Source: an uncultured Clostridium sp. (lineage in GTDB: Bacteria > Bacillota > Clostridia > TANB77 > CAG-508). Taken from it: a DNA stretch of 64,000 nucleotides. Of this stretch, positions 46,273-64,000 are shown one piece after another. A program made the position numbers and the translations under genes. The notes under the pieces were generated by a model. The model was not told the origin of the DNA, made no database searches, and saw nothing but the letters and a program-made list of their open reading frames with translations. The stretch is from NCBI GenBank assembly GCA_946497695.1, contig CAMMLJ010000002.1:62001-126000 (forward strand), written 5' to 3'. Every line of letters starts with the position of its first letter. Position 1 is the stretch's first letter.

Positions 46273-47925
46273 ATGAATATAACAAAAGTTAAAATAAATA
46301 ACTTTAAAACACTAAGAAAATTTGAATTTGAACCATATAGTGGAATGAATATATTAGTAGGTAATAATAACGAAGGAAAATCCACTATTTTTGAAGCAAT
46401 TCACTTAGCACTAACAGGTTATTATAGAGGAAAATATATAAGAAATTCTGTTACTCAAGATATTTTTAATGAGGAATGTGTAAATGATTATGTTTCTAAA
46501 ATAAACACTGAAAAAAATACTCCTTTGCCTAAATTAAATATAGAATTATTTTTTGATTCTGCTCCAGAACTATTAGGAATTAACAATTCTGAACAAGAAG
46601 ATAAGCCATCAATTAATTTTTCTATCGAATTTGATAGTAGTTTTGAAAAAGAATATGAAGAGTTTGTAGAAAAAGGAAATATTACAACGTTACCAATAGA
46701 ATATTACAAAATATCATGGCATTGTTCAGCAAATGATGATAATGAAATGACCACAAGATCTATACCAATTAAATCAGTTTTGATAGATACATCAGATTCA
46801 AATTTAAGAAATAGCTCTGATACATGTATATCAAAAATAATAAAAGAAAAGTTAGAAGAGACAGAAATAATAGATATTTCTCAAACATATAGAAGTGTAA
46901 GAGATGAATTTATTAATAGTACTACTATAAAAAACATTAATGAGAGATTAACAAAAGAAGATCATCTTATGGGTAATACTATACAAATGGATATAGAAAT
47001 GTTAAATAAAAACGAATGGGAAAAATCAATTATAACTAAAATTAATTCTACACCATTTGAGAATGTAGGAAAAGGAGAACAAGCTACATTAAAAATAGAA
47101 TTATCACTTAAAAATCCTAAAGCAGAGAAAGCAGGAATAATATTACTAGAAGAGCCGGAGAATCATTTGACATATTCAAAATTGAGTAGGTTGTTAAATG
47201 ATATAGAAAAAGTAGGTAGCAGCAAGCAGATATTTGTGACAACGCACAGTAGCTTTGTTGCAAATAAATTAGGTCTAAAAAAGCTAATATTATTAAAAAA
47301 ACAAAATACTATGAAGTTTAGTGATTTGAGTGAGGATACACAGGATTTTTTTATGAAAAAGCCTGGTTATGATACATTAAGATTTTTATTATGTGCAGAG
47401 GCAATTTTAGTGGAAGGAGATGCGGATGAATTAGTTGTCCAAAGAGCATATAAAGATAAATATAGCAAATTACCAATAGAAGATGAAATAGATATAATAT
47501 CTGTAGGAACTACTTTTTTACGTTTTTTGGAAATAGCAGAAAAACTTGAAAAACAAACAGTTGTTGTAACAGATAATGATGGAGATATAAGAGCACTAGA
47601 AAGAAAATATTCGAATTATATCGGAAAAAATTCCAAGGAGTATATAAATATTTGTTATGACAATAAAATGCATACAAATCAAGGTAGTCTAGTAGCAAAG
47701 AACGGAGGAAAGTTTAATTATGATACATTAGAACCTTGTATAGTTAGAGCTAATTCTCTAGAAAAAATAAATAAAATTTTGAATAAAAATTATACATCAG
47801 ATGATGATTTAATAGAATATATGATAAAAAACAAAACAGATTGTGCTTTAAAAATTTTTAATGCAAAAGAAAATATTAATTATCCAAATTATATTAAGAA
47901 GGCGATAGGTGATTATGGAGAATAA
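46273..47925 (+). CDS. gajA: GajA-like ATP-dependent OLD nuclease
   Basis: 550 residues (ATG 46273, behind GAGGTGG). Walker A GNNNEGKSTIFEA (about 31-43), the ABC signature-like VGKGEQATLKIELS and Walker B IILLEEPENHLTY form the OLD-type ATPase, followed by the switch TTHSS. The C-terminal TOPRIM nuclease shows AILVEGDADELVVQ (Glu, about 381) and VVVTDNDGDIRALER (Asp motif, about 432). Gabija GajA is the nuclease triggered by nucleotide depletion in phage infection. Paired with the next gene, overlapping by 11 nt. Confidence 0.87.
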   Translation: MNITKVKINNFKTLRKFEFEPYSGMNILVGNNNEGKSTIFEAIHLALTGYYRGKYIRNSVTQDIFNEECVNDYVSKINTEKNTPLPKLNIELFFDSAPELLGINNSEQEDKPSINFSIEFDSSFEKEYEEFVEKGNITTLPIEYYKISWHCSANDDNEMTTRSIPIKSVLIDTSDSNLRNSSDTCISKIIKEKLEETEIIDISQTYRSVRDEFINSTTIKNINERLTKEDHLMGNTIQMDIEMLNKNEWEKSIITKINSTPFENVGKGEQATLKIELSLKNPKAEKAGIILLEEPENHLTYSKLSRLLNDIEKVGSSKQIFVTTHSSFVANKLGLKKLILLKKQNTMKFSDLSEDTQDFFMKKPGYDTLRFLLCAEAILVEGDADELVVQRAYKDKYSKLPIEDEIDIISVGTTFLRFLEIAEKLEKQTVVVTDNDGDIRALERKYSNYIGKNSKEYINICYDNKMHTNQGSLVAKNGGKFNYDTLEPCIVRANSLEKINKILNKNYTSDDDLIEYMIKNKTDCALKIFNAKENINYPNYIKKAIGDYGE

Positions 47926-49054
47926 ATTAATAATAGCTGGAGCAGGTACAGGGAAAACAAAATATTTAATAGATAGAGCCATAGAAATAAAAGAAAGAGT
48001 CTTAATAACCACATTTACCATTAATTGCAAGAATGAAATTATAGACAAGATTATTAAACGAAAAGGATATGTTCCTAAAAATATAAATGTACAAACATGG
48101 TTTTCAGTATTACTTCAGCATGGAGTAAAGCCATATAAAAGAACATTTAAAATTAATAATGTAAAAGGTGTTAATATGACACAAGGCAGATCTGGATTAA
48201 GATATCGAGGAAAAAGAGGTCCTGTGTATTGGGGAGAAGAAAACTTTGATAAATTTTATTTTGACTCTAATAATAACATATATACAGATAAACTATCTAA
48301 ATTAGTTATAAGAATAGATAATGAAACACATGGAAAAGTAATAGATAGATTGACATCGATTTATAATAATATATTTTTAGATGAAGTACAAGATATGGCG
48401 GGATATGATTTAGAATTTATAAAAAGATTGATGAATTCAAATTCAAATATTATTTTAGTTGGAGATCCAAGACAGACTGTTTATAAGACACATTATGAAC
48501 AAAAATATAAAAAGTATTCAGATGGTAATATTGAAAACTTTATAAGAGAAGAATGTAAAAAAATAGAGTGTGATGTAGATAATACAACATTAAATAGATG
48601 TTATAGATGTCATAAAGATATAATTACTTTTGTAAATAATTTTTATAATGATTTCACTCCAATGAAATCTACAGAAATCGAAGAAAAGGAACATCAAGGA
48701 GTCTTTACTATAAAGAAAAGTCAAATTGAAGAATATATAAGAAAATATAATCCAGTTCAAATTATTTATGATTCAAGAACTATCACTAGTAAACTTTCAC
48801 AGACAATTACTATGGGAAAATCAAAAGGAGCAACTTATAATAGAGTATTACTATATCCTACAGGAGAATTCAAAAATTATATTATAAATGGAAATGCAAG
48901 CATTAATATTGGAACTAAAAACAAATTATATGTAGGAATGACAAGACCTATAAATAGTTTAACATTTGTAATTGACGATGATAATAATGCTTTTCGGATT
49001 AAAAAATGGTTTGGAAGAGGTTTAGAAAATGATACAAAGAAATTCATTATTTAA
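47915..49054 (+). CDS. gajB: GajB-like UvrD-type helicase
   Basis: 379 residues. Walker A IIAGAGTGKTKYLID (about 6-20), motif II FLDEVQDMAGYDLEF (about 153), motif III LVGDPRQTVYKTHY (about 183), motif IV-like NRCYRCHKDIITFVN and C-terminal KLYVGMTRPINSLTFVI (motif VI). Shorter than the roughly 490-residue Bacillus GajB; some subdomain insertions are missing. Starts inside the last codons of gajA (ATG 47915, or GTG 47909), so the pair is one transcription unit. Confidence 0.82.
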   Translation: MENKLIIAGAGTGKTKYLIDRAIEIKERVLITTFTINCKNEIIDKIIKRKGYVPKNINVQTWFSVLLQHGVKPYKRTFKINNVKGVNMTQGRSGLRYRGKRGPVYWGEENFDKFYFDSNNNIYTDKLSKLVIRIDNETHGKVIDRLTSIYNNIFLDEVQDMAGYDLEFIKRLMNSNSNIILVGDPRQTVYKTHYEQKYKKYSDGNIENFIREECKKIECDVDNTTLNRCYRCHKDIITFVNNFYNDFTPMKSTEIEEKEHQGVFTIKKSQIEEYIRKYNPVQIIYDSRTITSKLSQTITMGKSKGATYNRVLLYPTGEFKNYIINGNASINIGTKNKLYVGMTRPINSLTFVIDDDNNAFRIKKWFGRGLENDTKKFII

Positions 49055-50825: not shown

Positions 50826-51345
50826 ATGTATGAAATACCGTGGTTTAAAACAGAAACTACAATATTTTCAAACAGGAAAATTCAAATAATTCTAAAACTT
50901 CCTGAAGGAGATACTTATTTTAGAGTGTGGATTCAATTAATCGCATTAGCAGTTGAATGTAATAATAGAGGAAGATTAGAAATTGGAACAAATAATCCAA
51001 TGACAATTCAAAATTTTTCAAAGATTATGGGAAAATCTAATAAAAAAATTGAAAAAATTTTGAAAGAGTTTCTAGAATTAGAAATGTTAAAAAAAAGAAG
51101 GGGAAACATTTCTAATAAAAAATTGGGACAAGTATCAAAGTATTGAAAAATATGAAAAACATCAAATGCAAAACAGAGAAAGACAAAGAAAATATCGTGA
51201 AAAGCATAAAAGTGAAATTGAAAAAAGTAACGTTATACAAGAGTTAGGTAACGGAGAAGAGGAAAACAAAAAAGATTTAGAAGATAAGAAAGAAAAAAAT
51301 ATAAGAGAGGAGAACGAGAATGGATTTAGACAATACAAAATCTGA
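50826..51345 (+). pseudogene. replication initiator (phage replisome organizer type), frameshifted
   Basis: Starts MYEIPWFKTETTIFSNRKIQIILKLPEGD and IWIQLIALAVECNNRGRL, the N-terminal winged-helix domain of phage/ICE replisome organizers. At the run of eight A residues (51089-51096) the frame is lost; with seven A residues it would continue as LKKEGETFLIKNWDKYQSIEKYEKHQ, the expected next segment, and a basic tail ending at TGA 51343-51345 inside dnaC. In the present frame it stops at 51146. Real mutation, sequencing error and polymerase slippage all remain possible. Confidence 0.75.
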
Positions 51346-52138
51346 TGAAATTATTCACAAAGAGTTCAAAAAGTGTGGATTTTGTGGCAAAGAATTAGCA
51401 CCAATAGGACTTGATTATTTATATGCTAATATATCTCCAGAGGCAGTTAAATATGAAAGATGTAATTGCAATGAGGCACAAGAATACTGGAAAAATGTAG
51501 ATGAGCAAGAATATGAAAAGGAAAAAAGAAAACATTTTAGAAATATTATAAACAAAATTTACAAGCAGAACTATGTCGGAAGAAAATTTCAAGAACAGAA
51601 CTTTGAAAATTTTGATATTAATTCAGGAAATGAAATTGCAGTAGAAGTTGCTAAAGACTATACCGATAAAAGTATAGAAAGAATGCAAAATTACGGACTG
51701 ATAATAACGGGCGAGTCAGGAGTTGGAAAGACACATTTAGCAGCATCAATTGCTAACAAATTAATTGAAAATGATAAGATTGTTTTGATGGGAAGATTAA
51801 CAATGTTATTGGACATGATCAAGGAAACATTTAGAGACAATACAAAGTCGGAAAATGAATTAATAGAACTATATTCAAATGTAGATATGATCATAATTGA
51901 TGATCTTGGAACAGAAAAAATAAGCCAGTGGGCATTAGAAAAATTGTATACAATAATTCAAAATAGAAATGAAAATGGATTACCAATAATAATTACAACA
52001 AGGTTTGATAAACATGGATTAATAGAAAGATTCAGTCAAAGTCAAGATGAACAATTAGTAGATGCAATAATATCAAAATTGTATCAAATGTGTTATGGAA
52101 TAACACTAAAAAAGGTAAAAGAAAAAGAGTTAGTATAA
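51320..52138 (+). CDS. DnaC/IstB-like replication helicase loader
   Basis: 272 residues. An N-terminal zinc-binding part (CGFCGKELAP...ERCNCNEAQEYW) precedes the AAA+ ATPase: Walker A TGESGVGKTHLAASIANKL (about 134), Walker B MIIIDDLGTEKIS (about 192), sensor 1 PIIITTRF. Such proteins load DnaB-type helicase at element or phage origins. GAGAGGAG before ATG 51320; overlaps the end of the replication initiator frame by 26 nt. Confidence 0.9.
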   Translation: MDLDNTKSDEIIHKEFKKCGFCGKELAPIGLDYLYANISPEAVKYERCNCNEAQEYWKNVDEQEYEKEKRKHFRNIINKIYKQNYVGRKFQEQNFENFDINSGNEIAVEVAKDYTDKSIERMQNYGLIITGESGVGKTHLAASIANKLIENDKIVLMGRLTMLLDMIKETFRDNTKSENELIELYSNVDMIIIDDLGTEKISQWALEKLYTIIQNRNENGLPIIITTRFDKHGLIERFSQSQDEQLVDAIISKLYQMCYGITLKKVKEKELV

Positions 52139-52411
52139 GCCGCAAAACTAAAATACCAACCCAAATCTTTATACAATTATTGTAGTACAAAAATATAAAA
52201 AAGTAAATAGAAAATGAAAGAAAAAATACTTGGATTTTGATAGAAAACTCCAAGTATTTTTCAAAATATTGTGTGTATTTGATAGAAAAAGTAAGGGTTT
52301 TAGTACTAAAAAAGAGTGCAGTATTGTCCTAACAAGCAATGAATTTCGTCAGCTCGAAATTCTAAATGGGGAAAATCCCCAATCCCCTTTTAAGATGGGA
52401 GGAGAGAGCAA
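52139..52411. other. oriT candidate region upstream of the relaxase
   Basis: 272 bp with a terminator (52223-52261: AAAATACTTGGA pairs with TCCAAGTATTTT, T-run), TTGATAGAAAA twice as a direct repeat (near 52236 and 52279), GTGCAGTATTGTCCTAACAAG near 52316, and a G/C-rich GGGGAAAATCCCC(AATCCCC) run near 52367-52385 before the relaxase. Relaxase genes of this type lie next to their oriT, so the nick site should be in here. Confidence 0.5.
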
Positions 52412-53809
52412 ATGGCAACAACAAAAATATGGAAAGTACAAAAGAGATTAGATCATGTAATTGTTTATGCAACAAATGAAGAAAAGACAAGAAAAAATTC
52501 TAGCGGATATGGAATGGATAGATTTGATAGTATCAGACAAGTAATGACATATGCAACTAATCCAGATAAAACAGAAAAACAATTTTATACAACAGGCATA
52601 AATTGTGAAGTAAAAGATTCAGTTAAACAAATGCAACTTGTAAAAATGATATATGGAAAAGAAAATGGTATATTAGCATTTCATGCTTATCAATCTTTTA
52701 ATGAAGGAGAAGTTACTCCAGAAATTGCTCATGAGATTGGAGTAAAACTTGCAAATGAAATGTGGGGAGACAGATTTCAAGTTGTAGTATCTACTCACTT
52801 AAATACTCAACATCTTCATAATCATTTTGTCATCAATTCAGTTTCATTTAAAGATGGAAAGAAGTATTATAGTAATTTAACTAATACTGCATTGTTAAGA
52901 AAAACATCAGATGAAATATGTGAAGAATATGGCTTAAGTGTTTTAAAAGAAAAGACATGTAAATCTGGAATCAATTTTGAAAATTTTTATAAAAAATCTA
53001 TGAGAGATTCAGACTATTATAAATTTGCAAAAGAAGATATAGATTATGCTATAAAACGATCATATACTTTAAAACAATTTCAACAGATGTTAGTATCAAT
53101 GGGATATAATTATTGTTATAGAGCAGACAAATTAAGTGTGAGAAGAGATCCATACAAAAGAAATATAAGAATCGAAAGAGCATTCGGAGAAGAGTATTCA
53201 TTGGAAAATATCAAAAGAAGAATATTTGAAAATGATTATATAAGATCAGAAAAAATACTTCCATATATTATAGTAAAAAACAAACATTTTACAACTAGAA
53301 ATAAAGTAAGGAAGAAATATAGACCAAAAGGGATTATTGCATTGTATTATTATTATAGATATTTGCTAAAGTTATATACCAAAAAGAATATACAATATAA
53401 ATTAACTCCTGAAATGAGGGCAGAAGTAAAAAAGATGGATGAGTATTCGGAAAGAATTAGATTTTTATGTAAGTATAGAATTGAGACTATGAGCGATGTT
53501 GATAATATTAAAGAACAGAAACAAGAAGAATTGCAGAAAATTTTGAATATTAGGAATAGACTTTATTATAAGAGACAAAAGTTAGATAGTGGAGTTGAAA
53601 AAGATAGTGTTACTAAAGAAATAATTGATGTTACTTCTGTTTTAACAAAGGTTAGAAAAGAGATTAAGTTATGTGATGAATTTTATGATGATGTGCCAAA
53701 GATGAAGGAGCAATTAAAAGAACTATATGATAAAGAAAAGCAGAAGATAAAAGAAAAAGAACAAGAGAAAAATTTAAAAAGGAAGAAAGATGATAGATTG
53801 ATAAATTAG
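52412..53809 (+). CDS. MobA/VirD2-type relaxase (MobP)
   Basis: 465 residues. The N-terminal relaxase domain has the HUH-like histidine motif THLNTQHLHNHFVINS (about 128-143; H.N..H.HNH), preceded by FHAYQSFNEGEVTPEIAHEIG, and the AHxxxxF-type ligand order of the PF03432 relaxases. The catalytic tyrosine is likely in the MTYATNPDKT region (about 45). The second half is basic and coiled-coil rich (KQEELQKILNIRNRLYYKRQ). It nicks oriT and leads the transferred strand. AGGAGAG precedes ATG 52412. Confidence 0.88.
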   Translation: MATTKIWKVQKRLDHVIVYATNEEKTRKNSSGYGMDRFDSIRQVMTYATNPDKTEKQFYTTGINCEVKDSVKQMQLVKMIYGKENGILAFHAYQSFNEGEVTPEIAHEIGVKLANEMWGDRFQVVVSTHLNTQHLHNHFVINSVSFKDGKKYYSNLTNTALLRKTSDEICEEYGLSVLKEKTCKSGINFENFYKKSMRDSDYYKFAKEDIDYAIKRSYTLKQFQQMLVSMGYNYCYRADKLSVRRDPYKRNIRIERAFGEEYSLENIKRRIFENDYIRSEKILPYIIVKNKHFTTRNKVRKKYRPKGIIALYYYYRYLLKLYTKKNIQYKLTPEMRAEVKKMDEYSERIRFLCKYRIETMSDVDNIKEQKQEELQKILNIRNRLYYKRQKLDSGVEKDSVTKEIIDVTSVLTKVRKEIKLCDEFYDDVPKMKEQLKELYDKEKQKIKEKEQEKNLKRKKDDRLIN

Positions 53810-53996: not shown

Positions 53997-54593
53997 ATGG
54001 AAGATTATAGCGCAAAATTAACAGCAGAGCCTTTCTTATATAACGAAACAAAAACAATTGCAAAATTTTTGCTTGATGGAGAAGAAGAAGAGAAACTTCG
54101 CAAAAGAAATATAGAAGAAAATTTAATTAAATATAAATCACCCAAAAGCATTGTTCGAGTAAATTCTCCAATATTTAGAAGACTAGATGCTATGGATAAA
54201 GAAATGCTTGAAGATTTTGTGTATTCTGATATAGAAAATAGCAAACACATACTTTTATACGCAATAATGAAAACAGATAAACTTGTAAGAGATTTTATAT
54301 TGGAAGTTTATAAAGATAAATTGATGATGAGAAAAGAATATATAGAGAAGTTTGATATAGATAATTGGTATGAAGAAAAATGTATATTAAGTAATACCCT
54401 AAAAGAGAGAAGTGAAACAACATCAGCAAAATTAAAACAAGTAATAATGAAAATTATGCAAGATTCTGGATTAGTGATAAAAGAAAAAACAAGATTTAAA
54501 ATTGTAAGACCATTATTAAAAGAAAAATTTATAAGTATGTTAGATAAAAATGGGGACTTAGAATATGCAAAAGCAATAGGGGGGCTATTATGA
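53997..54593 (+). CDS. brxA: BREX system protein BrxA (DUF1819)
   Basis: 198 residues, first gene of the BREX operon. The N-terminal YSAKLTAEPFLYNETKTIAKFLLDG is the family start; later SPIFRRLDAMDKEMLEDFVYSDIENSKHILLYAIMKTD and VRPLLKEKFISML. BrxA has a NusB-like fold and binds DNA in other BREX-1 systems; its exact role is unclear. TAGGAG lies before the ATG. It overlaps brxB by 4 nt (ATGA). Confidence 0.9.
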   Translation: MEDYSAKLTAEPFLYNETKTIAKFLLDGEEEEKLRKRNIEENLIKYKSPKSIVRVNSPIFRRLDAMDKEMLEDFVYSDIENSKHILLYAIMKTDKLVRDFILEVYKDKLMMRKEYIEKFDIDNWYEEKCILSNTLKERSETTSAKLKQVIMKIMQDSGLVIKEKTRFKIVRPLLKEKFISMLDKNGDLEYAKAIGGLL

Positions 54594-55162
54594 AAAGTAT
54601 AAATGCAAGATTAGACGAAATGACAAAGAAGTTAAGCAGTAAAGATTTATTTGAATCCAATGGACTAGGTAATGAAATAAATTTTCATGTATTTGATTAT
54701 GATCCTGAAGATGAATATATTGTTAGAGAATATCTTGAAAATTACTTACTAAAGAAAGAAAAATTGAATATAAAAGTATTTGATATATATGACATAATAA
54801 TAGATATTTTAAAAGAAAAGGGATTTTTAGAGAAAGTATTTGCATTTGAAAAAAACAAAGGAACAAAATACATAAATGAAATAATATCAAAAACATTAGG
54901 CATAGGCTCTAACAATGATTTGATTATGAAAAAGATTAGGGAAGAGGTGCAACCTGATCAAATAATACTAATAACAGGAATAGGTAAATGTTATGGAATT
55001 GTGAGAGGGCATACGATTTTAAATAATTTACATAGTGTTATAACAAACAATCCATTGTTAATGTTTTATCCAGGTAGTTATGATGGACAAAGTTTCAAAC
55101 TATTCAATAGATTAGAAAATGATAATTATTATAGAGCATTCCAATTTGTAGGAAGAAAATAG
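54590..55162 (+). CDS. brxB: BREX system protein BrxB (DUF1788)
   Basis: 190 residues. Family words: DEMTKKLSSKDLFESNGLGNEINFHVFDYDPEDEYIVREYL at the start and LITGIGKCYGIVRGHTILNNLHSVITNNPLLMFYPGSYDGQSFKLFNRL in the second half. Function within BREX is not established beyond being needed in several systems. Its ATG overlaps the brxA stop, and it is 13 nt before brxC. Confidence 0.92.
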   Translation: MKSINARLDEMTKKLSSKDLFESNGLGNEINFHVFDYDPEDEYIVREYLENYLLKKEKLNIKVFDIYDIIIDILKEKGFLEKVFAFEKNKGTKYINEIISKTLGIGSNNDLIMKKIREEVQPDQIILITGIGKCYGIVRGHTILNNLHSVITNNPLLMFYPGSYDGQSFKLFNRLENDNYYRAFQFVGRK

Positions 55163-55175
55163 GGGGAATAATGAA

Positions 55176-58100
55176 ATGGAAAATTTAAAAAGAATTTATG
55201 CAAAAGACATAGACAGAGAAATACAAGGAGTTATAAAAGTAGATGATGAAAGCTATATAAGTCAAGAATTAGAAGAATATGTAGTAACAGATGAATTACT
55301 AAAACACTTCAACAGCTTTTTTGAAGCATATAATGCTGGAATAAACTCTAATACAGAAAAAATGGGAGTTTGGATTTCTGGTTTCTTTGGTAGTGGTAAA
55401 TCACACTTCTTAAAAATTATTTCTTATCTATTAGAAAATAAAATTGTAAATGGAAAACCAGCCGTTGACTACTTTGATGACAAAATTCAAGATAAAATGT
55501 TACTTGCAGATATAAAAAGAGCAGGAAGTATTCCTACAGATGTTATTTTATTTAATATTGACTCAAAAACAGAAAACACAAATGGAATGAAAGATAAAAT
55601 ACTAGATGTATTTGAAAAAGTATTTAATGAGAAAATGGGATTATCCATAACTCCTTTCGTAGCTGAAATTGAAAGATTTATAATTAGTCAAGGAAAATAC
55701 GAAGAGTTTAAAGAAGAATTAAAAAATATTTGTGGACAACCCTGGGAAGAGATGAGAGATGGTATTCAATTCGTTCAAGACGAATTTAGCAAAGCATATT
55801 CTAATGTACTTGGAAAAACAATAGAAGAAGCAAACGAAGTAATTGATAGAACAGAAAAAAATTATTCTTTATCAGTTGAAAAATTTGCTGAAAGAGTAAG
55901 AGATTATATAAAATCAAAAGAAAATAACCATCATGTAATATTCTTAGTTGATGAAATAGGACAATATATTGGAGATGACAGATCTTTAATGTTGAATTTA
56001 CAGACAATAGTTGAGGATTTAGGACTAGAATGTGGTGGAAAAGCATGGGTTATAGTAACTAGCCAAGAAGCTATTGACGATGTTGTAAAAGTACAAGGAA
56101 ATGATTTTTCCAAAATTCAAGGAAGATTTGATACAAAGTTATCTTTATCATCATCTGATATTGACGAAGTTATTAAGAAGAGAATTTTAGGCAAAACAGA
56201 AGAAGCAGAGAAGAGCCTTGAATTAATATATGAAAAAGAAGAATCAATAATAAGAAATTTATTGACATTTAAAAATGCATCATACCAAAAAGTATATGAA
56301 GATGCAAAAGACTTTGCTGATACATATCCATTTATTCCATATCAATTTAAACTATTACAAGATGTATTTACAGATATAAGAAAGCATGGATATGCAGGAA
56401 AGCACTTATCAAGTGGAGAAAGATCATTATTAGGAGCATTCCAAGAAACAGCCAAAAGATTTGCAGATAGCGAAATTGGAACAATAATTCCATTCTATGC
56501 TTTTTATGACACAATAGAACAATTCCTAGAACATCAAATAAAAATTGTTATAAAAACAGCTATGGATACAGTTCAAAGTGGAGAATTAAAGGACATTGAT
56601 GTAAAAGTATTAAAAATGTTATTTATGCTAAAAAATATTAAAGAAATACCAGCTAACATTGATAACCTAGCTACTTTATATGTTTCAAATATAAAAGATG
56701 ATAAGATTTCAATTAAGAAAGAAATAACGGACTCTTTGAGAAGACTTGAAGCCCAAACATTAATACAAAGAAATAATGATGAATACAAATTCTTAACGGA
56801 CGAAGAACAGGAAATAAATAGAGAAATTAAGCAAATAGTAATAGATCAAAACAGAATTACAGATTACCTAAAAAGAATAGTATTTGATTATATTTATACA
56901 GATAGCAAATTTACCTATAAGAGTAAGAACTTTCCACTAACAAAATATATAGACAATATAAAATATTCTCAAGAATATGAAATTGGAATTAAAGTTATTA
57001 CAACATCTCCAGAGAGAGATGATACAGAAATAATAATGCAGTCAGCAAGAGAAAACAAGTATGTATTTGTAAAACTAGAGATTTCAACATTAATATATGA
57101 TGAAATAACAAACTTCTTACAAGTTGAAGAATATAGAAGGAGTAAAAGTGGTATTTTCCAAACACAACAGGTTGAGGATATTATCAGAGCAAAACAAAGA
57201 GAAATAGAAAATGCAGAAATTAGAATCAGAGATAATGTAAAAGAAAATCTAAATAATGCTGAAATAATTATAGCAGGGGATAGACAAAACATAAATTCAA
57301 GAGAGGCAAAAACAAGAATAAATGAAGCACTAGAGATATTGATAAATAATATTTATACAAAATTCACTTATATTAAGCACAATTATACAACACAGGACAT
57401 AAAAGAACTATTCCATCAAAATATGCAAATGACAATTGGAAATGAAGTTGAATTTGTAAATAAAAAAGCTTACGATGCAATGAAAGAATATTGTGAAGAA
57501 AAAAATGCTTTTAGTATGACAATGACAATCAGAACAATATTACAAGATTTTAGTACAGCACCTTATGGGTTTTTAGATGAAGATATACTTTATTTATTAA
57601 CAAGATTATTAAAAGATGAAGTTATATCACTAATCTATGGAAATGAAGTTCAAAATATAACAGCTGAAGAAACACTTACAAAAATATTAAAAAGAGAATA
57701 TTATGATAGAACAATTGTGAAAATTAGACAAAAAATATCATTAGAATTGATAAATAACTTAAAGTCAGTTGCAAGAAGCTCTTTTAATGTAATTAATCTA
57801 AGAGATGATGAGGATGGAATGGTTGCAGACTTCAAAGCAAATTGTCTAACAGATACATTAAATAGATTAAGAAATATTTTGGCAAATTACGGATATGGAG
57901 CAAGAACATATCAATATCCAGGAAAAGATGTAGTTGAAAGAGCAATTAGTTTATATAGTGATTTATTAAAAATAAGAGATGTGTCAGAATTTTTCAAGGT
58001 TGTTACAGAGAAAAAAGATGAAATTAATGAAATATCTCCAAAAACAGAAATGGTATTAGACTTTTTCAAAGGTATGCAAAGAGAACAATTTGATAATGCA

Positions 58101-58712
58101 AGAAAAACATTATTAATATATGATAATAACAAAGATTTTGCAGATAAAACTGATGAATTAAAAGGCGTTGTAGATGAAATTACAGAAATACTAAATAGCG
58201 AAGAACCTTATAGTGAAATTCATAATTTACCAATGTTAAGAAAAGACTTAATTGATTTATTAAGCAAAATGTATGATGCAAAATCTGAACCAATAATCAA
58301 TATGATAAACGATACTATTGCTTATATTGAAAATGAAGTAAAAAATGCAGAAGTTAGAGAAGATTTCGGATCAAGTTATATAAGAACATGTAAAGACGTT
58401 ATAAATACACTAGAACATTCTAACGAATTAAAAGATATATATGCTCAACAAACAAGAATAGATCAACTAAAAGACAGATTTATAAATGCTTTAGAATACG
58501 AAAAGAGCAAAGCAAAAATAATTGAAGAAACAGGAAAAGAACCAGAAGAAGAAAAAGTTGTAATTGTACCAAGAAAAGTTATAAGAACAGATGTGCTTAT
58601 GAATCGTTCTTATGAAATTAATTCAAGAGAAGATATAGACAGATATGTAGAAGAATTAAAATCAAAATTGTTAAAAGAATTTGATAAAAATAATAATTTA
58701 ACAATTAGATAG
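55176..58712 (+). CDS. brxC: BREX system P-loop ATPase BrxC
   Basis: 1,178 residues, the expected size. Walker A WISGFFGSGKSHFLKI is at about residues 66-81; Walker B is VIFLVDEIGQYIG (about 250). The long C-terminal region is helical, with acidic/basic coiled-coil stretches (EDIIRAKQREIENAEIRIRDN). Needed for BREX-1 defence and methylation in known systems, probably as an oligomeric AAA+-like motor. GGGGGAA precedes the ATG. Followed 11 nt on by pglX. Confidence 0.95.
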   Translation: MENLKRIYAKDIDREIQGVIKVDDESYISQELEEYVVTDELLKHFNSFFEAYNAGINSNTEKMGVWISGFFGSGKSHFLKIISYLLENKIVNGKPAVDYFDDKIQDKMLLADIKRAGSIPTDVILFNIDSKTENTNGMKDKILDVFEKVFNEKMGLSITPFVAEIERFIISQGKYEEFKEELKNICGQPWEEMRDGIQFVQDEFSKAYSNVLGKTIEEANEVIDRTEKNYSLSVEKFAERVRDYIKSKENNHHVIFLVDEIGQYIGDDRSLMLNLQTIVEDLGLECGGKAWVIVTSQEAIDDVVKVQGNDFSKIQGRFDTKLSLSSSDIDEVIKKRILGKTEEAEKSLELIYEKEESIIRNLLTFKNASYQKVYEDAKDFADTYPFIPYQFKLLQDVFTDIRKHGYAGKHLSSGERSLLGAFQETAKRFADSEIGTIIPFYAFYDTIEQFLEHQIKIVIKTAMDTVQSGELKDIDVKVLKMLFMLKNIKEIPANIDNLATLYVSNIKDDKISIKKEITDSLRRLEAQTLIQRNNDEYKFLTDEEQEINREIKQIVIDQNRITDYLKRIVFDYIYTDSKFTYKSKNFPLTKYIDNIKYSQEYEIGIKVITTSPERDDTEIIMQSARENKYVFVKLEISTLIYDEITNFLQVEEYRRSKSGIFQTQQVEDIIRAKQREIENAEIRIRDNVKENLNNAEIIIAGDRQNINSREAKTRINEALEILINNIYTKFTYIKHNYTTQDIKELFHQNMQMTIGNEVEFVNKKAYDAMKEYCEEKNAFSMTMTIRTILQDFSTAPYGFLDEDILYLLTRLLKDEVISLIYGNEVQNITAEETLTKILKREYYDRTIVKIRQKISLELINNLKSVARSSFNVINLRDDEDGMVADFKANCLTDTLNRLRNILANYGYGARTYQYPGKDVVERAISLYSDLLKIRDVSEFFKVVTEKKDEINEISPKTEMVLDFFKGMQREQFDNARKTLLIYDNNKDFADKTDELKGVVDEITEILNSEEPYSEIHNLPMLRKDLIDLLSKMYDAKSEPIINMINDTIAYIENEVKNAEVREDFGSSYIRTCKDVINTLEHSNELKDIYAQQTRIDQLKDRFINALEYEKSKAKIIEETGKEPEEEKVVIVPRKVIRTDVLMNRSYEINSREDIDRYVEELKSKLLKEFDKNNNLTIR

Positions 58713-58723
58713 GAGAGAGAATA

Positions 58724-61700
58724 TTGGATAAATCTGTATTAAAAAAGTTTGCAATAGAATCAAGACAAGATTTAATGCAAAGAATGGAAAACAAAATAAA
58801 AACATTCTATATTGATGAAGAATTTTCAAAACAACAAAGTGGAGATGTTTATATTCTTGCTAATAGTAAACATAGCTTAAATTTGTCAAAAGAAGAATAT
58901 ACCAAAAGAGAACTTCTTATAAAAAGAATTAATGAATTAGGATTAGAACAAGTTATAGAGGAAGCTGCATATACTTGGTTTAATAGAATAGTGGCAATAA
59001 GATATATGGAAATCCATGATTATTTACCACTAACACGAGATAATCAAAGTTTAGGAATAAGAGTATTGTCATCAAAAGATAATACTCCAGATCCTGAAAT
59101 AATGAAATTTACAAACTTAGTAAACCCAGAATTAGATATTGACTTTAAGAAAGAAAAATATGTTGAACTAAAAGATGATAATGAAAAGTTTAAATATATT
59201 TTACTTTTAGTGTGTAGAAAACTTGGAAGAGTTATTCCTCAAGTGTTTGATGGGATAACAGATTATGTAGATATCTTAATACCTGATAATTTATTAAATG
59301 ATACAGGATTTATTACTAAAGTAATATATGAAGTATCTGAAAATAATTATAACCAAGTTGAAATTATCGGTTGGTTATATCAATACTATAATCAAGCTGA
59401 AAAAGATAGAGTAATATCTGCAAAAAAACCATATAAAAAGAATGAAATTGCTTATGCAACACAATTATTTACTCCTGATTGGATTGTTAAATATATGGTA
59501 GAAAATTCACTAGGAAAGTTTTGGATTGAACATGGTGGAAATAAAGAATTAATTAATAATTGGAAATATTACATTGATGGTAAAATAAATTATAAAAATG
59601 AAAGTATAAATCCTCAAAATATAAAGTGTTTTGATCCATGTATGGGTAGTGGGCATATATTGGTATATCTTTTTGAAGTACTTTATCAGATATATGAATC
59701 TTTCGGATACAATAAGAATGATATTCCAGAATTAATATTAAAAAATAATATACATGGACTTGATATTGATGATAGAGCAGGACAACTTGCAATATTATCT
59801 GTATTATTAAAAGCTAGAGAGTATGATAGAAATATATTTAATAAAAATATTTATCATGACTTAAAAATTCAGAGTATTTCCGAAAGTAATAACTTTGATT
59901 ATTCATTAATTCAAATTTTAAATGAAAATGAAAAAGAAATAGTAGAAAATTTAATAAAGTGCTTTAAAGATGCTAAAGATATAGGTTCATTAAATAAATT
60001 AATTGATATTGATTTAAAAGCTTTAAAAAATTTAAAAGAAAAATTACATAAAGGAAATGATTTGTTTACATATCAACTAAAATATATGTTTTATCCAATT
60101 ATTAGAGAATATATTATTTTGAAAAATAAGTATGATGTGGTAGTTACTAATCCACCTTACATAAGATTGTCAAAGACCTCAAAAATTCTTAATAACTATC
60201 TGGCAAAGAATTATAAGACGACTAAATATGATTTATATTCAGCGTTTATTGAAAAGATTATTAATATGCTCGATAATAAAGGAATAATGTCGATGATTAC
60301 TCCACAGGCATGGATGTTTTTAACTACATTTGAAGATTTAAGAAAAAATATTATTAATAATATGAATATAGACAATGTTATACAATTAGGTACAGGAGCA
60401 TTTGACTGTGGTTTTGGTACGGCTTCATTTGTTTTAAGAAAAGAAAAATGTGATGCAAAAAGTTGTTTTTTAAAATTAGACTTATTTGACACGGAAGATG
60501 AAAAAATAAAAAACTATTTTATAGATAAAAATAAATATTATATTGAGCAATCAAAATTTTTGTCAATTCCATCTACCGCGTTTGCATATTGGATATCAGA
60601 TGGATTTATGAATGCTTTTAAAAATAAAAGGATTAAAGACTATTATGAAATGGAAAGTGGTATTGTAACAGGAAATAATGAAAAATATTTACGATATTGG
60701 TATGAAGTTAATGATAATTTAATATGTAAGAATAATTTAGAAACTGAAGTAATAACTTCCTCAGACTTAAAATGGTTTAAATGCAACAAAGGTGGAGGAT
60801 ATAAACGATGGTATGGTAACATGGAATATGTTGTCGATTTATATCATAATGCAAAAAATATTAGAGAAAATATTTCACCAGATATTTATCGTTTAAGAAA
60901 TATAGATAACTATTCAAGAAAGGCTATTACTTGGCCACTTATTGGAGATAAGAAGTTTAGTGCTAAATTTCTTCCTAATGAAGTAATTAATAATAAAGCC
61001 GCAAATGCGTTATATTTAAATGATGAACAACAGTTACATGTAATGGGATATATGAATTCAAAAGTATTTAATGAAATAATAAATATGATTAATCCGACCG
61101 TTAGTTATCCAATTGTTGATATTGAAAAAATTCCTGTAATACCAATAAATGATGAAACTATAATAAAAAAAGTTAAAGAAAATATCAAAATTTCAAAAGA
61201 AGATTGGGATTCATTTGAAACAAGTTGGAATTTTACAAAACACCCATTATTAAAGCCAATGTTAAAGGGTTCGACAATAAGAGATTCATTAGCAAATTGG
61301 AATACTTATACTTATCAACAAAGGAGTTTATTAAAGCACAATGAAGAAGAACTTAATAAAATATTTATTGATATATATGGATTAAATGATGAACTAACGC
61401 CAGAAGTTGATGATAATGATATAACTATAAGAAAAGAAGATAAAGTAAGAGATATTAAATCTTTTATAAGTTATGCAGTAGGTTGTATGTTTGGTAGATA
61501 TTCATTAGATAAAGATGGGGTGATATTTGCAGGTGAAACTTTTGATGAAAATAATTATAAAACTTTCAATGCTGATAATGATAATATTATTCCAATTACT
61601 GATAAAGCATATTATAGTGATGATATTGTTGAAAGATTTAAAACATTTATAAAAACTATATATGGAGATAATACATTTAATGAGAATATGGATTTTATTG

Positions 61701-62161
61701 CTGAAGCGTTAGGAAAAAAAGGAACTGAAACAAGTGAAGAAACCATAAGAAGATATTTTGTAAATGATTTCTTTAATGATCATTGTAAAATATATCAAAA
61801 AAGACCTATTTATTGGTTATTAGATAGTGGAAAGAAAAATGGATTTAAGGCCTTAATTTATATGCATAGATATAATGAAAACCTAATTCCAAAGGCAAGA
61901 CTTGATTATTTACACAAAGTTCAGACAACTTATGAAAAATTATTATCTGATGTAAATTATAAACTTACAACAGATTTATTAATGGTAGATAAAAAAGATG
62001 CACAAAAAAGACAAGCAGACTTAAATGCGAAACTTCAAGAAATTAAGGAATATGATGAAAAAATAGCTCATATTGCAAATCAAAGAATTAGTATTGATTT
62101 GGATGACGGAGTAAAAGTAAATTATGAAAAATTTAAAGAAATATTAGCAAAGATAAAGTAA
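58724..62161 (+). CDS. pglX: BREX adenine-specific DNA methyltransferase PglX
   Basis: 1,145 residues; an N6-adenine methyltransferase that marks host DNA. SAM motif I is FDPCMGSGHILVYLFEV (about 302-318), the catalytic NPPY is VVVTNPPYIRL (about 472-482), preceded by GLDIDDRAGQLAILSVLLKA, the gamma-class order. A middle target-recognition part and a C-terminal coiled coil (AQKRQADLNAKLQEI) complete it. TTG 58724 behind GGAGAGAG fits the start MDKSVLKKFAIESRQDL typical of BREX-1 PglX. Confidence 0.95.
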   Translation: MDKSVLKKFAIESRQDLMQRMENKIKTFYIDEEFSKQQSGDVYILANSKHSLNLSKEEYTKRELLIKRINELGLEQVIEEAAYTWFNRIVAIRYMEIHDYLPLTRDNQSLGIRVLSSKDNTPDPEIMKFTNLVNPELDIDFKKEKYVELKDDNEKFKYILLLVCRKLGRVIPQVFDGITDYVDILIPDNLLNDTGFITKVIYEVSENNYNQVEIIGWLYQYYNQAEKDRVISAKKPYKKNEIAYATQLFTPDWIVKYMVENSLGKFWIEHGGNKELINNWKYYIDGKINYKNESINPQNIKCFDPCMGSGHILVYLFEVLYQIYESFGYNKNDIPELILKNNIHGLDIDDRAGQLAILSVLLKAREYDRNIFNKNIYHDLKIQSISESNNFDYSLIQILNENEKEIVENLIKCFKDAKDIGSLNKLIDIDLKALKNLKEKLHKGNDLFTYQLKYMFYPIIREYIILKNKYDVVVTNPPYIRLSKTSKILNNYLAKNYKTTKYDLYSAFIEKIINMLDNKGIMSMITPQAWMFLTTFEDLRKNIINNMNIDNVIQLGTGAFDCGFGTASFVLRKEKCDAKSCFLKLDLFDTEDEKIKNYFIDKNKYYIEQSKFLSIPSTAFAYWISDGFMNAFKNKRIKDYYEMESGIVTGNNEKYLRYWYEVNDNLICKNNLETEVITSSDLKWFKCNKGGGYKRWYGNMEYVVDLYHNAKNIRENISPDIYRLRNIDNYSRKAITWPLIGDKKFSAKFLPNEVINNKAANALYLNDEQQLHVMGYMNSKVFNEIINMINPTVSYPIVDIEKIPVIPINDETIIKKVKENIKISKEDWDSFETSWNFTKHPLLKPMLKGSTIRDSLANWNTYTYQQRSLLKHNEEELNKIFIDIYGLNDELTPEVDDNDITIRKEDKVRDIKSFISYAVGCMFGRYSLDKDGVIFAGETFDENNYKTFNADNDNIIPITDKAYYSDDIVERFKTFIKTIYGDNTFNENMDFIAEALGKKGTETSEETIRRYFVNDFFNDHCKIYQKRPIYWLLDSGKKNGFKALIYMHRYNENLIPKARLDYLHKVQTTYEKLLSDVNYKLTTDLLMVDKKDAQKRQADLNAKLQEIKEYDEKIAHIANQRISIDLDDGVKVNYEKFKEILAKIK

Positions 62162-62171
62162 AGGAGAAAAA

Positions 62172-63270
62172 ATGTCCAAAGAACCATATACAAAATGTCA
62201 TTATATACCCCAAGTATATTTAAGACAATGGAGGTATGATAAAAAAAACGAAAAAGAATATGCAGAAGTACAAGTTTATGATAAAGTTAATCAAAAGAAA
62301 CTTTATAAAAAAATAGAAGATAACTATTATGTGGATGATTTATATAATCCATATTTAAAAGAATCACTGGATTTATATTGTAATTTACCACAAAATATGA
62401 AAGAAAGTTTTATAAGTAAGATAGACGACTATACAAAAAATAATAATATAGAGATATATTATGGACAGGAAAATCTTAAATACAAAGAAAACCTTAATAT
62501 ATTATACTTAAATAACCAAGAAAAAATTAAATTTAAAAAAAAATGACAAATTTGTTTCTGATACTGCAAACAAAGAAATATATAATAAGTTAATGAGTAT
62601 CAAATGTACAAACATAGAACAAGATTTTAATAAAAAAATAGAAACATTCTGGAATGATTTTATCCAAAAGCTAGATAAAGGAAAAACAGAATTTGAAAAA
62701 GATTCATCACATAACATTGTATCTCTTAGTACTAAACAATTGAATTATTTACATGATTTTATCATTACAATGATAACCCGAATAAAGAATATTCCAGGTA
62801 TTCAAGGATATGATTTGGAAATAAAAAATATAAGTAAATTTGTTGATAATTCTGTTATAAAATCAATGTTTGAAGGAATTGAAAAAGCAAGTACTCCTTG
62901 CAATAAATTTCCAGATTATCATTTTATAACGCAAAATTATGATTTATTGAATAAAAAAAACAACCACTTTAAAGAATCATTTTTTTATAATGAAAATAGA
63001 AATTGTCAAATGCTTATAATAAGAGATAACAATGATTTAGAATTTTATACAAGTGATGTGCCATGCTTTCTCGAAGAAGAAAGTAATACTATATATTGTC
63101 CTGCTACAGACAAAATATTTTTAATGTTTACTAAAGAAGATACACAGAATAGTAATATAAAGATTGTAGAAGCATCTGCCGACGATGTATTAAGGCTTAA
63201 TGACTTAGTTTGTGAACACGCTAAAAACGATATCATTTTTAAAAATAAATGGAGGTCAACTAATGTTTGA
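62172..63270 (+). pseudogene. DUF4238-like protein frameshifted at a run of nine A (BREX operon insert)
   Basis: The N-terminal frame (62172-62546) begins KEPYTKCHYIPQVYLRQW, the DUF4238 hallmark HYxPQxYLRxF. A run of nine A (62535-62543) is followed at once by TGA. Removing one A joins the frame to the rest (FKKNDKFVSDTANKE..., running to 63270) with YTSDVPCFLEEE, typical of the C-terminal DUF4238 segment. The restored protein has about 366 residues. It lies between pglX and pglZ, where standard BREX-1 has no gene, and overlaps the pglZ start by 8 nt. Function unknown. Confidence 0.75.
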
Positions 63271-64000
63271 TGAAGTTACACAACTTCTTTTGGATACAAT
63301 AAACGGAGAATTTTCAAGAGACAATGAAAAAAAAAGAACTAGAAAAATAATATTCTGGTATGATCCAAAAGAAGAATATAAAGAATTAATAAATGAATTG
63401 AATATAGAAGATACAGAAATAATTGTATATGACAATAATAGTTTCTGGATAAGGTATCATATTGAAAAAGAAGAACTAACAAAAAACATAGTTATTTATC
63501 TTCCTTTTGAAAGACTAAAAGGAACAGATAATGAACTATTAGACATAGAAAGTTCAAATAGCGATTTACTTTTCAATCCTGATGCTACAACAATGAGATT
63601 AAAAAATCTTGAACTAACAGAAAATTGCAGAAATATAATTAAAAATTACAGCAAATTTTTCAACAACAAAAAGAGAGAAAGTGATTTTAAAGCATTTGAT
63701 GTTGAAGAAAAAACACCAGACAATATTGATTATATAATTACTGCAATATTGCTAGAAATTAAATCTATTAGTGAAGATGACATACTAAAAGGTATAATAA
63801 AATTATATTTTGAAGACTCTAAAAAATACGAAAATCTATTTAAATTTGGAAATGAACAATTTATAATAAACTTGTTTAATCATACATTTGGAAGCTCTAT
63901 AAAAAGCTCTAAAGAGCTTCCAGAGGTATATAAAGCTCTTGTATTTACATACTTTGCTTCTAGTATAGCTGACAAAAACAAAATAGGAAGATTCAGCAAA
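63263..64000 (+). CDS. pglZ: BREX alkaline-phosphatase-fold protein PglZ (3' end outside window)
   Basis: The first 246 residues; open to the window end. The start MFDEVTQLLLDTINGEF and RKIIFWYDPKEEYKELINEL, with IVIYLPFERL, are the N-terminal domain of BREX-1 PglZ; the catalytic phosphatase-like core lies beyond. GGAGG lies 7 nt before ATG 63263, inside the end of the DUF4238 gene. A run of nine A at 63327-63335 lies in the frame here, and the frame is intact. brxL would be expected next. Confidence 0.87.
   Translation, partial: MFDEVTQLLLDTINGEFSRDNEKKRTRKIIFWYDPKEEYKELINELNIEDTEIIVYDNNSFWIRYHIEKEELTKNIVIYLPFERLKGTDNELLDIESSNSDLLFNPDATTMRLKNLELTENCRNIIKNYSKFFNNKKRESDFKAFDVEEKTPDNIDYIITAILLEIKSISEDDILKGIIKLYFEDSKKYENLFKFGNEQFIINLFNHTFGSSIKSSKELPEVYKALVFTYFASSIADKNKIGRFSK

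Follow-up and report, generated by a model that had tools for sequence, protein, structure and literature searches.

The window, by which we mean the whole stretch of 64,000 nucleotides analysed here, carries a type 1 BREX operon of an uncultured Clostridium sp. Matches to Pfam and PADLOC profiles establish that the operon is complete and keeps the core gene order, brxA-brxB-brxC-pglX-DUF4238-pglZ-brxL, with one additional gene, of the DUF4238 family, lodged between pglX and pglZ (Table 1). The first four core genes lie inside the window, and pglZ and brxL run on past its end. All six core genes are intact, including the 847-aa pglZ and the 674-aa brxL, both of which are in frame and free of stops. 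Between pglX and pglZ no terminator is predicted on the forward strand, and promoter-like sites occur there at chance level only.

The operon is part of a defence island. A gajB gene for a Gabija helicase is located upstream (window 47909-49054), and an AbiL-like pair consisting of an AAA ATPase and RloB follows downstream of the operon, on contig C2 beyond the window (L002:19115 to L003:979). Directly 5′ of brxA, at window 50826-53809, there are replisome-organiser, DnaC-like and MobA/VirD2 relaxase genes, which may be what is left, or a portion, of a mobilisable element that could have brought in the BREX operon.

Table 1. Features of the BREX-1 operon and of its interrupted DUF4238 gene in the window
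Feature	Position	Strand	Evidence
brxA	53997..54593	+	Pfam BrxA 1.2e-43, PADLOC BrxA 1.6e-48
brxB	54590..55162	+	Pfam BrxB 4.2e-40
brxC	55176..58712	+	PADLOC BrxC, E=0, 1253 bits
pglX (BrxX methyltransferase)	58724..62161	+	PADLOC PglX, E=0, 1290 bits
DUF4238 accessory gene, interrupted, one protein in two frames	62172..63270	+	Pfam DUF4238 matches
5′ ORF, 124 aa, with conserved HYIPQxYLRxW motif and AAGGAG ribosome site upstream	62172..62546	+	
A8 run in the DUF4238 gene	62241..62248	+	
3′ open frame with conserved E, R, FxTSDxP and N positions; first ATG 62593, no clear ribosome site	62512..63270	+	
A9 run where the frames part, within a long insert missing from most DUF4238 homologues	62535..62543	+	
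A8 run in the DUF4238 gene	62953..62960	+	
GGAGG ribosome site of pglZ, within the 3′ end of the DUF4238 gene	63251..63255	+	Read from sequence
pglZ, 5′ part, intact, 847 aa, continuing past the window end on contig G000:C2	63263..64000	+	
In-frame A9 run in pglZ, coding E-K-K-R	63327..63335	+	

The DUF4238 gene is interrupted, and its two frames lie back to back and are collinear with the Pfam DUF4238 profile (PF14022), matching positions 3-57 and then 55-280 of 281. The C-terminal part scores 51.6 bits against a cut-off of 27, whereas the N-terminal part alone, with 22.6 bits, stays below it. A frame-crossing translation, built for searching only, yields a single DUF4238 match over profile positions 3-280 with 56.7 bits. 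These results bear out the preliminary description, which had reported a single DUF4238 gene, broken at a run of nine A (A9), inside a BREX-1 operon between pglX and pglZ, with the break placed here at or beside that run; the gene overlaps pglZ, as described there, by 8 nt (63263-63270). Both A9 runs that it had listed, in the DUF4238 gene and in pglZ, are present exactly at the positions that it gave.

Since the open 3′ frame (252 aa) extends back to about 62512 and the 5′ frame closes at 62546, the break is confined to an interval of 35 nt (62512-62546). The longest run in this interval is the A9, which is thus the likeliest break site, and an A6 at 62521-62526 also falls inside it. Apart from this one break the gene is open along its full length, and an alignment shows that the positions conserved in the family (HYxPQxYL, E, R, FxTSDxP and N) are all kept in the window protein, as would be expected if the break were young. 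No close relative of the protein was found in 144 related genomes or in the genome_contigs, viral_contigs, plasmids and phages collections, so that, with no second copy of the gene, the age and the ancestral state of the break are not directly visible.

It might be supposed that the two pieces form a working two-subunit protein, of 124 aa and of about 225 aa starting from ATG 62593, with the break located in a linker. The break does fall within an insert of low predicted order (residues 91-147 have pLDDT <50, in a model of the frame-crossing protein that is poor overall, with pLDDT 53), and ATG 62593 stands just ahead of the conserved central part. However, this ATG has no ribosome site before it, the ATG that overlaps the stop (62543) opens a third frame, and the confident model of a family member (locus L161, pLDDT 85) does not show the N-terminal motif as a long domain of its own, making such a protein very improbable. 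Translational restart at 62543 was rejected as a candidate in its own right, given that this third frame runs for no more than about 20 codons.

The genomic context of the gene was analysed through two surveys of the pglX-pglZ junction. Among 20 BREX-1 loci of the same class, about half hold at least one gene at this position, the cargo comprising AlbA_2, DUF2971, AbiH, nucleotidyltransferase-HEPN (MNT-HEPN), DUF4357 and others. A search for DUF4238 genes between pglX and pglZ in other genomes, as put forward in the preliminary description, returned none in these 20 loci. The second survey covered 80 named loci gathered by BrxL, one of which (L161) has a DUF4238 gene after brxL, and seven of which form a closest set with BrxL 83-85% identical and a readable junction. 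The junction is empty in five of these seven, pglX and pglZ being 11-14 nt apart, and the remaining two contain one Apea-HEPN gene and one small, apparently broken gene. Cargo in the wider set is varied and of defence type, including OLD-like ATPases, SIR2, reverse transcriptase, RhuM and AlbA_2. With the junction empty in most of the closest loci and other cargo present elsewhere, the DUF4238 gene is best described as an insertion in a recognised cargo slot, and probably as a recent gain.

Both components of this arrangement have been published. A single DUF4238 gene provides strong T7 resistance in E. coli (PMC9122126), the Salmonella BREX operon has an ATPase-DUF4435 pair in the pglX-pglZ slot, which is a known cargo site (PMC9009780), and more than half of the systems that are BREX or related to BREX have been reported to have auxiliary effectors (PMC12839542). 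Given a family published as a single-gene anti-T7 defence and a slot already known, defence cargo in a BREX slot is of a known kind. The preliminary description could not place a DUF4238 BREX accessory with such a switch; the family's anti-phage role and the slot are both on record, but we found no published report of DUF4238 in the pglX-pglZ slot. DUF4238 as cargo of this slot is new here, and the family joins the list of defence cargo seen at this junction.

Comparison with the closest known systems delineates the specific features of the locus. The DUF4238 gene of an E. coli P2-phage hotspot (Rousset et al. 2022, PMC9122126) shares with it the Pfam family and the single-gene format and, like it, is defence cargo that occupies a slot within a larger element; the E. 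coli gene is stand-alone, prophage-borne and intact, whereas the window gene, which is interrupted and contains a long insert, is part of a BREX-1 operon on the chromosome. Published anti-phage activity concerns the E. coli member only. PARIS (ariA-ariB, ATPase + DUF4435) in the Salmonella StySA BREX operon (PMC9009780; PMC12839542) is likewise an accessory defence, occupies the same BREX-1 junction and is missing from sister operons, but it comprises other proteins and two genes, which are intact. The BREX-1 operon at L161 (Bacillota SKS3.bin19) also has a DUF4238 gene attached in the same orientation. There, in contrast, the gene is intact and lies downstream of brxL, SIR2 and HerA, and the best alignable stretch of the two proteins is 27% identical over 64 residues.

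The reading that we favour, with a probability of roughly 0.6, is that a mobile defence gene in the BREX cargo slot was broken by slippage, accidentally and perhaps reversibly, and does not form a demonstrated switch. The pglX/pglZ slot of the type 1 BREX operon would have acquired a mobile cassette made up of one phage-defence gene, of the DUF4238 family, and in the assembled genome this cassette would be off, through a frame break in or beside the A9, inside a poorly conserved insert. Ribosomes would halt after 124 residues, ahead of all conserved central and C-terminal positions, presumably with loss of function for as long as the gene is broken. The likeliest cause would be ordinary slippage in a run of A that has so far escaped removal by selection, in a gene that is recent or dispensable; such a break can revert, and the population may consequently be mixed. 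The occurrence of decayed DUF4238 genes elsewhere supports an accidental break, as N-terminal DUF4238 stubs are present at L073, L074 and L216 and the gene evidently decays often. Against it, the otherwise open frame also fits a gene under selection that is on part-time.

To set the A9 in the context of its genome, homopolymer runs were counted in coding sense in a 493-kb sample of the same genome and compared with a codon shuffle. A7 runs number 415 against 432 expected; A8 runs drop to one fifth of expectation (41 against 190) and A9 runs to one sixteenth (5 against about 81), and runs of at least 10 are absent (0 against about 70). Of the five coding-sense A9 runs, one belongs to a 71-aa ORF that is spurious. 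The same depletion is seen in other low-GC genomes, among them isolates, and thus reflects biological purging and not an assembly quirk. With A9 runs this rare, the presence of two of them within 0.8 kb is mildly unusual (a rough count of pairs gives about 3%, for a pattern noticed post hoc).

The DUF4238 gene holds three runs of at least 8 A (A8, A9 and A8) against about 0.2 expected at the purged level of the genome, a difference with a Poisson P of about 0.001 in a comparison chosen after the fact; from the gene's own lysine codons, unpurged, 1.5 runs would be expected (P=0.19 for three). The three runs point to a gene that selection against slippage has not reached: it may be a newcomer or dispensable, or it may benefit from switching, and the counts fit both. 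The latter case would correspond to evolved phase variation, with the A9 kept as a contingency switch so that a costly defence of the abortive type is active in a minority of the cells. The retention of long runs in a genome that strongly purges A9, together with the intact remainder of the frame and its conserved residues, is in line with such a switch, and an A9 is also found near the 5′ end of two of 23 other DUF4238 genes (L178 and L187), both intact, the other 21 having none at any position. However, nine A is short for a bacterial contingency tract, the run is at nt 364 of the gene, within a variable insert, and none of the homologues examined, all of them distant, has a run at that site. 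Moreover, most DUF4238 homologues lack any run of at least 8, and the number of runs in the window gene is close to the lysine-codon chance level given above. On/off variation in a BREX-family operon is on record for pglX of the Streptomyces coelicolor Pgl/BREX type 2 system (cited in PMC9122589). It is the core methyltransferase gene that varies there, and switching is demonstrated, whereas in the window the A run belongs to an accessory gene and is a candidate tract. We consider an evolved switch unlikely, and the DUF4238 tract gives no apparent sign of being kept as one.

Slippage might also take place during transcription, in which case a minority of mRNAs would carry the full-length frame and provide low-level function with the DNA unchanged. 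An A9 is within the range of known bacterial RNA polymerase slippage, and downstream an open frame of 252 codons retains its conserved residues, but the sequence gives no sign that slippage would be favoured in the required direction, and this possibility is a rather weak one in our estimation.

As the genome is metagenome-assembled, a further concern is that the break could be an artefact of assembly or consensus calling and the true tract intact. The genome is a draft in 52 contigs with completeness and contamination values of 92.87 and 5.89, and assembly errors usually occur in homopolymers. Nevertheless, A8 and A9 counts are alike in other low-GC genomes, including isolates, and in-frame A9 runs occur in pglZ and in the two other real coding instances checked, an intact essential gene that we take from its sequence to be rnpA and another intact gene of the same genome (C1:25569). 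Assembly does not, therefore, routinely break A9 runs, and an error at this particular one seems quite improbable.

The preliminary description had also considered the A9 in pglZ as a second switch, and the length state of the DUF4238 gene as a control on pglZ through translational coupling; neither idea is supported. Where the window reads GAA AAA AAA AGA, the nearest pglZ genes read GAA AGA AAA AGA, so that a single G-to-A change (AGA-to-AAA, Arg to Lys) makes the pglZ A9. The tract is not conserved, with A5 to A7 at the site in the seven nearest pglZ genes. Judged from these sequences and from the in-frame A9 of rnpA, the pglZ run looks like a coincidence, and nothing marks it as a switch. 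As for coupling, the GGAGG of pglZ stands 7 nt before its ATG, and in the operons with an empty slot pglZ comes after pglX with its own ribosome site. Given this strong site and the empty slots of the relatives, pglZ does not need coupling to the cargo gene and would be translated whatever the state of the latter. The untranslated 0.7 kb upstream could bring some polarity on pglZ.

Of the genomes sampled from this class and phylum, about 4% have a DUF4238 gene, and the family also occurs on viral contigs. Matches on plasmids amount to 407 records, and the gene looks stand-alone in the three regions examined. Type I restriction genes lie within a few ORFs in 8 of 39 other DUF4238 loci (L065, L066, L068, L070, L186, L187, L213 and L215), these being raw counts for defence genes, which cluster anyway. 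In four of the eight (L066, L068, L070 and L187) an intact DUF4238 gene immediately precedes hsdR, with both on one strand, the two genes abutting or overlapping by 4 nt at L066 and L068; at L215 the remains of a DUF4238 gene hold this place. The repeated DUF4238-hsdR neighbourhood in several type I restriction operons is new here. The window gene is directly upstream of pglZ, whose product has been described as the BREX nuclease (PMC11974810). The recurrent place and the T7 activity suggest a possible guard role against anti-restriction proteins. In its full form, the proposal would be that DUF4238 guards restriction systems from a position upstream of hsdR or pglZ, acts when these are blocked by, for instance, T7 Ocr, in the manner of PARIS, and is here also phase-variable via the A9; we regard this combined proposal as doubtful. 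A guard role, if true, would account for the T7 activity of a family with no convincing fold match here, and the switching claim would matter only if reads showed tract variation.

In structural searches with the confident L161 model, Foldseek against the PDB gave no match (best E 0.38), and the VIA comparison reached Z values up to 3.4 only, over a helical part; the one good structural match is an uncharacterised protein of Stenotrophomonas phage Smp131. A profile search of PDB sequences returned nothing convincing. Missing structural matches of this sort do not show the DUF4238 fold to be new.

Two observations on pglX emerged from the surveyed loci. In Marinitoga lauensis (L160 3993-7450) pglX is split into two overlapping ORFs (524 + 628 aa). 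G runs occur at nearly the same place of pglX in Pelotomaculum (L113, nt 2128, a G8 at the conserved GGG motif) and in Paenibacillus faecis (L165, nt 2159, a G9), in genomes of 44-50% GC, and by analogy with pglX of Streptomyces may be considered possible phase-variation sites.
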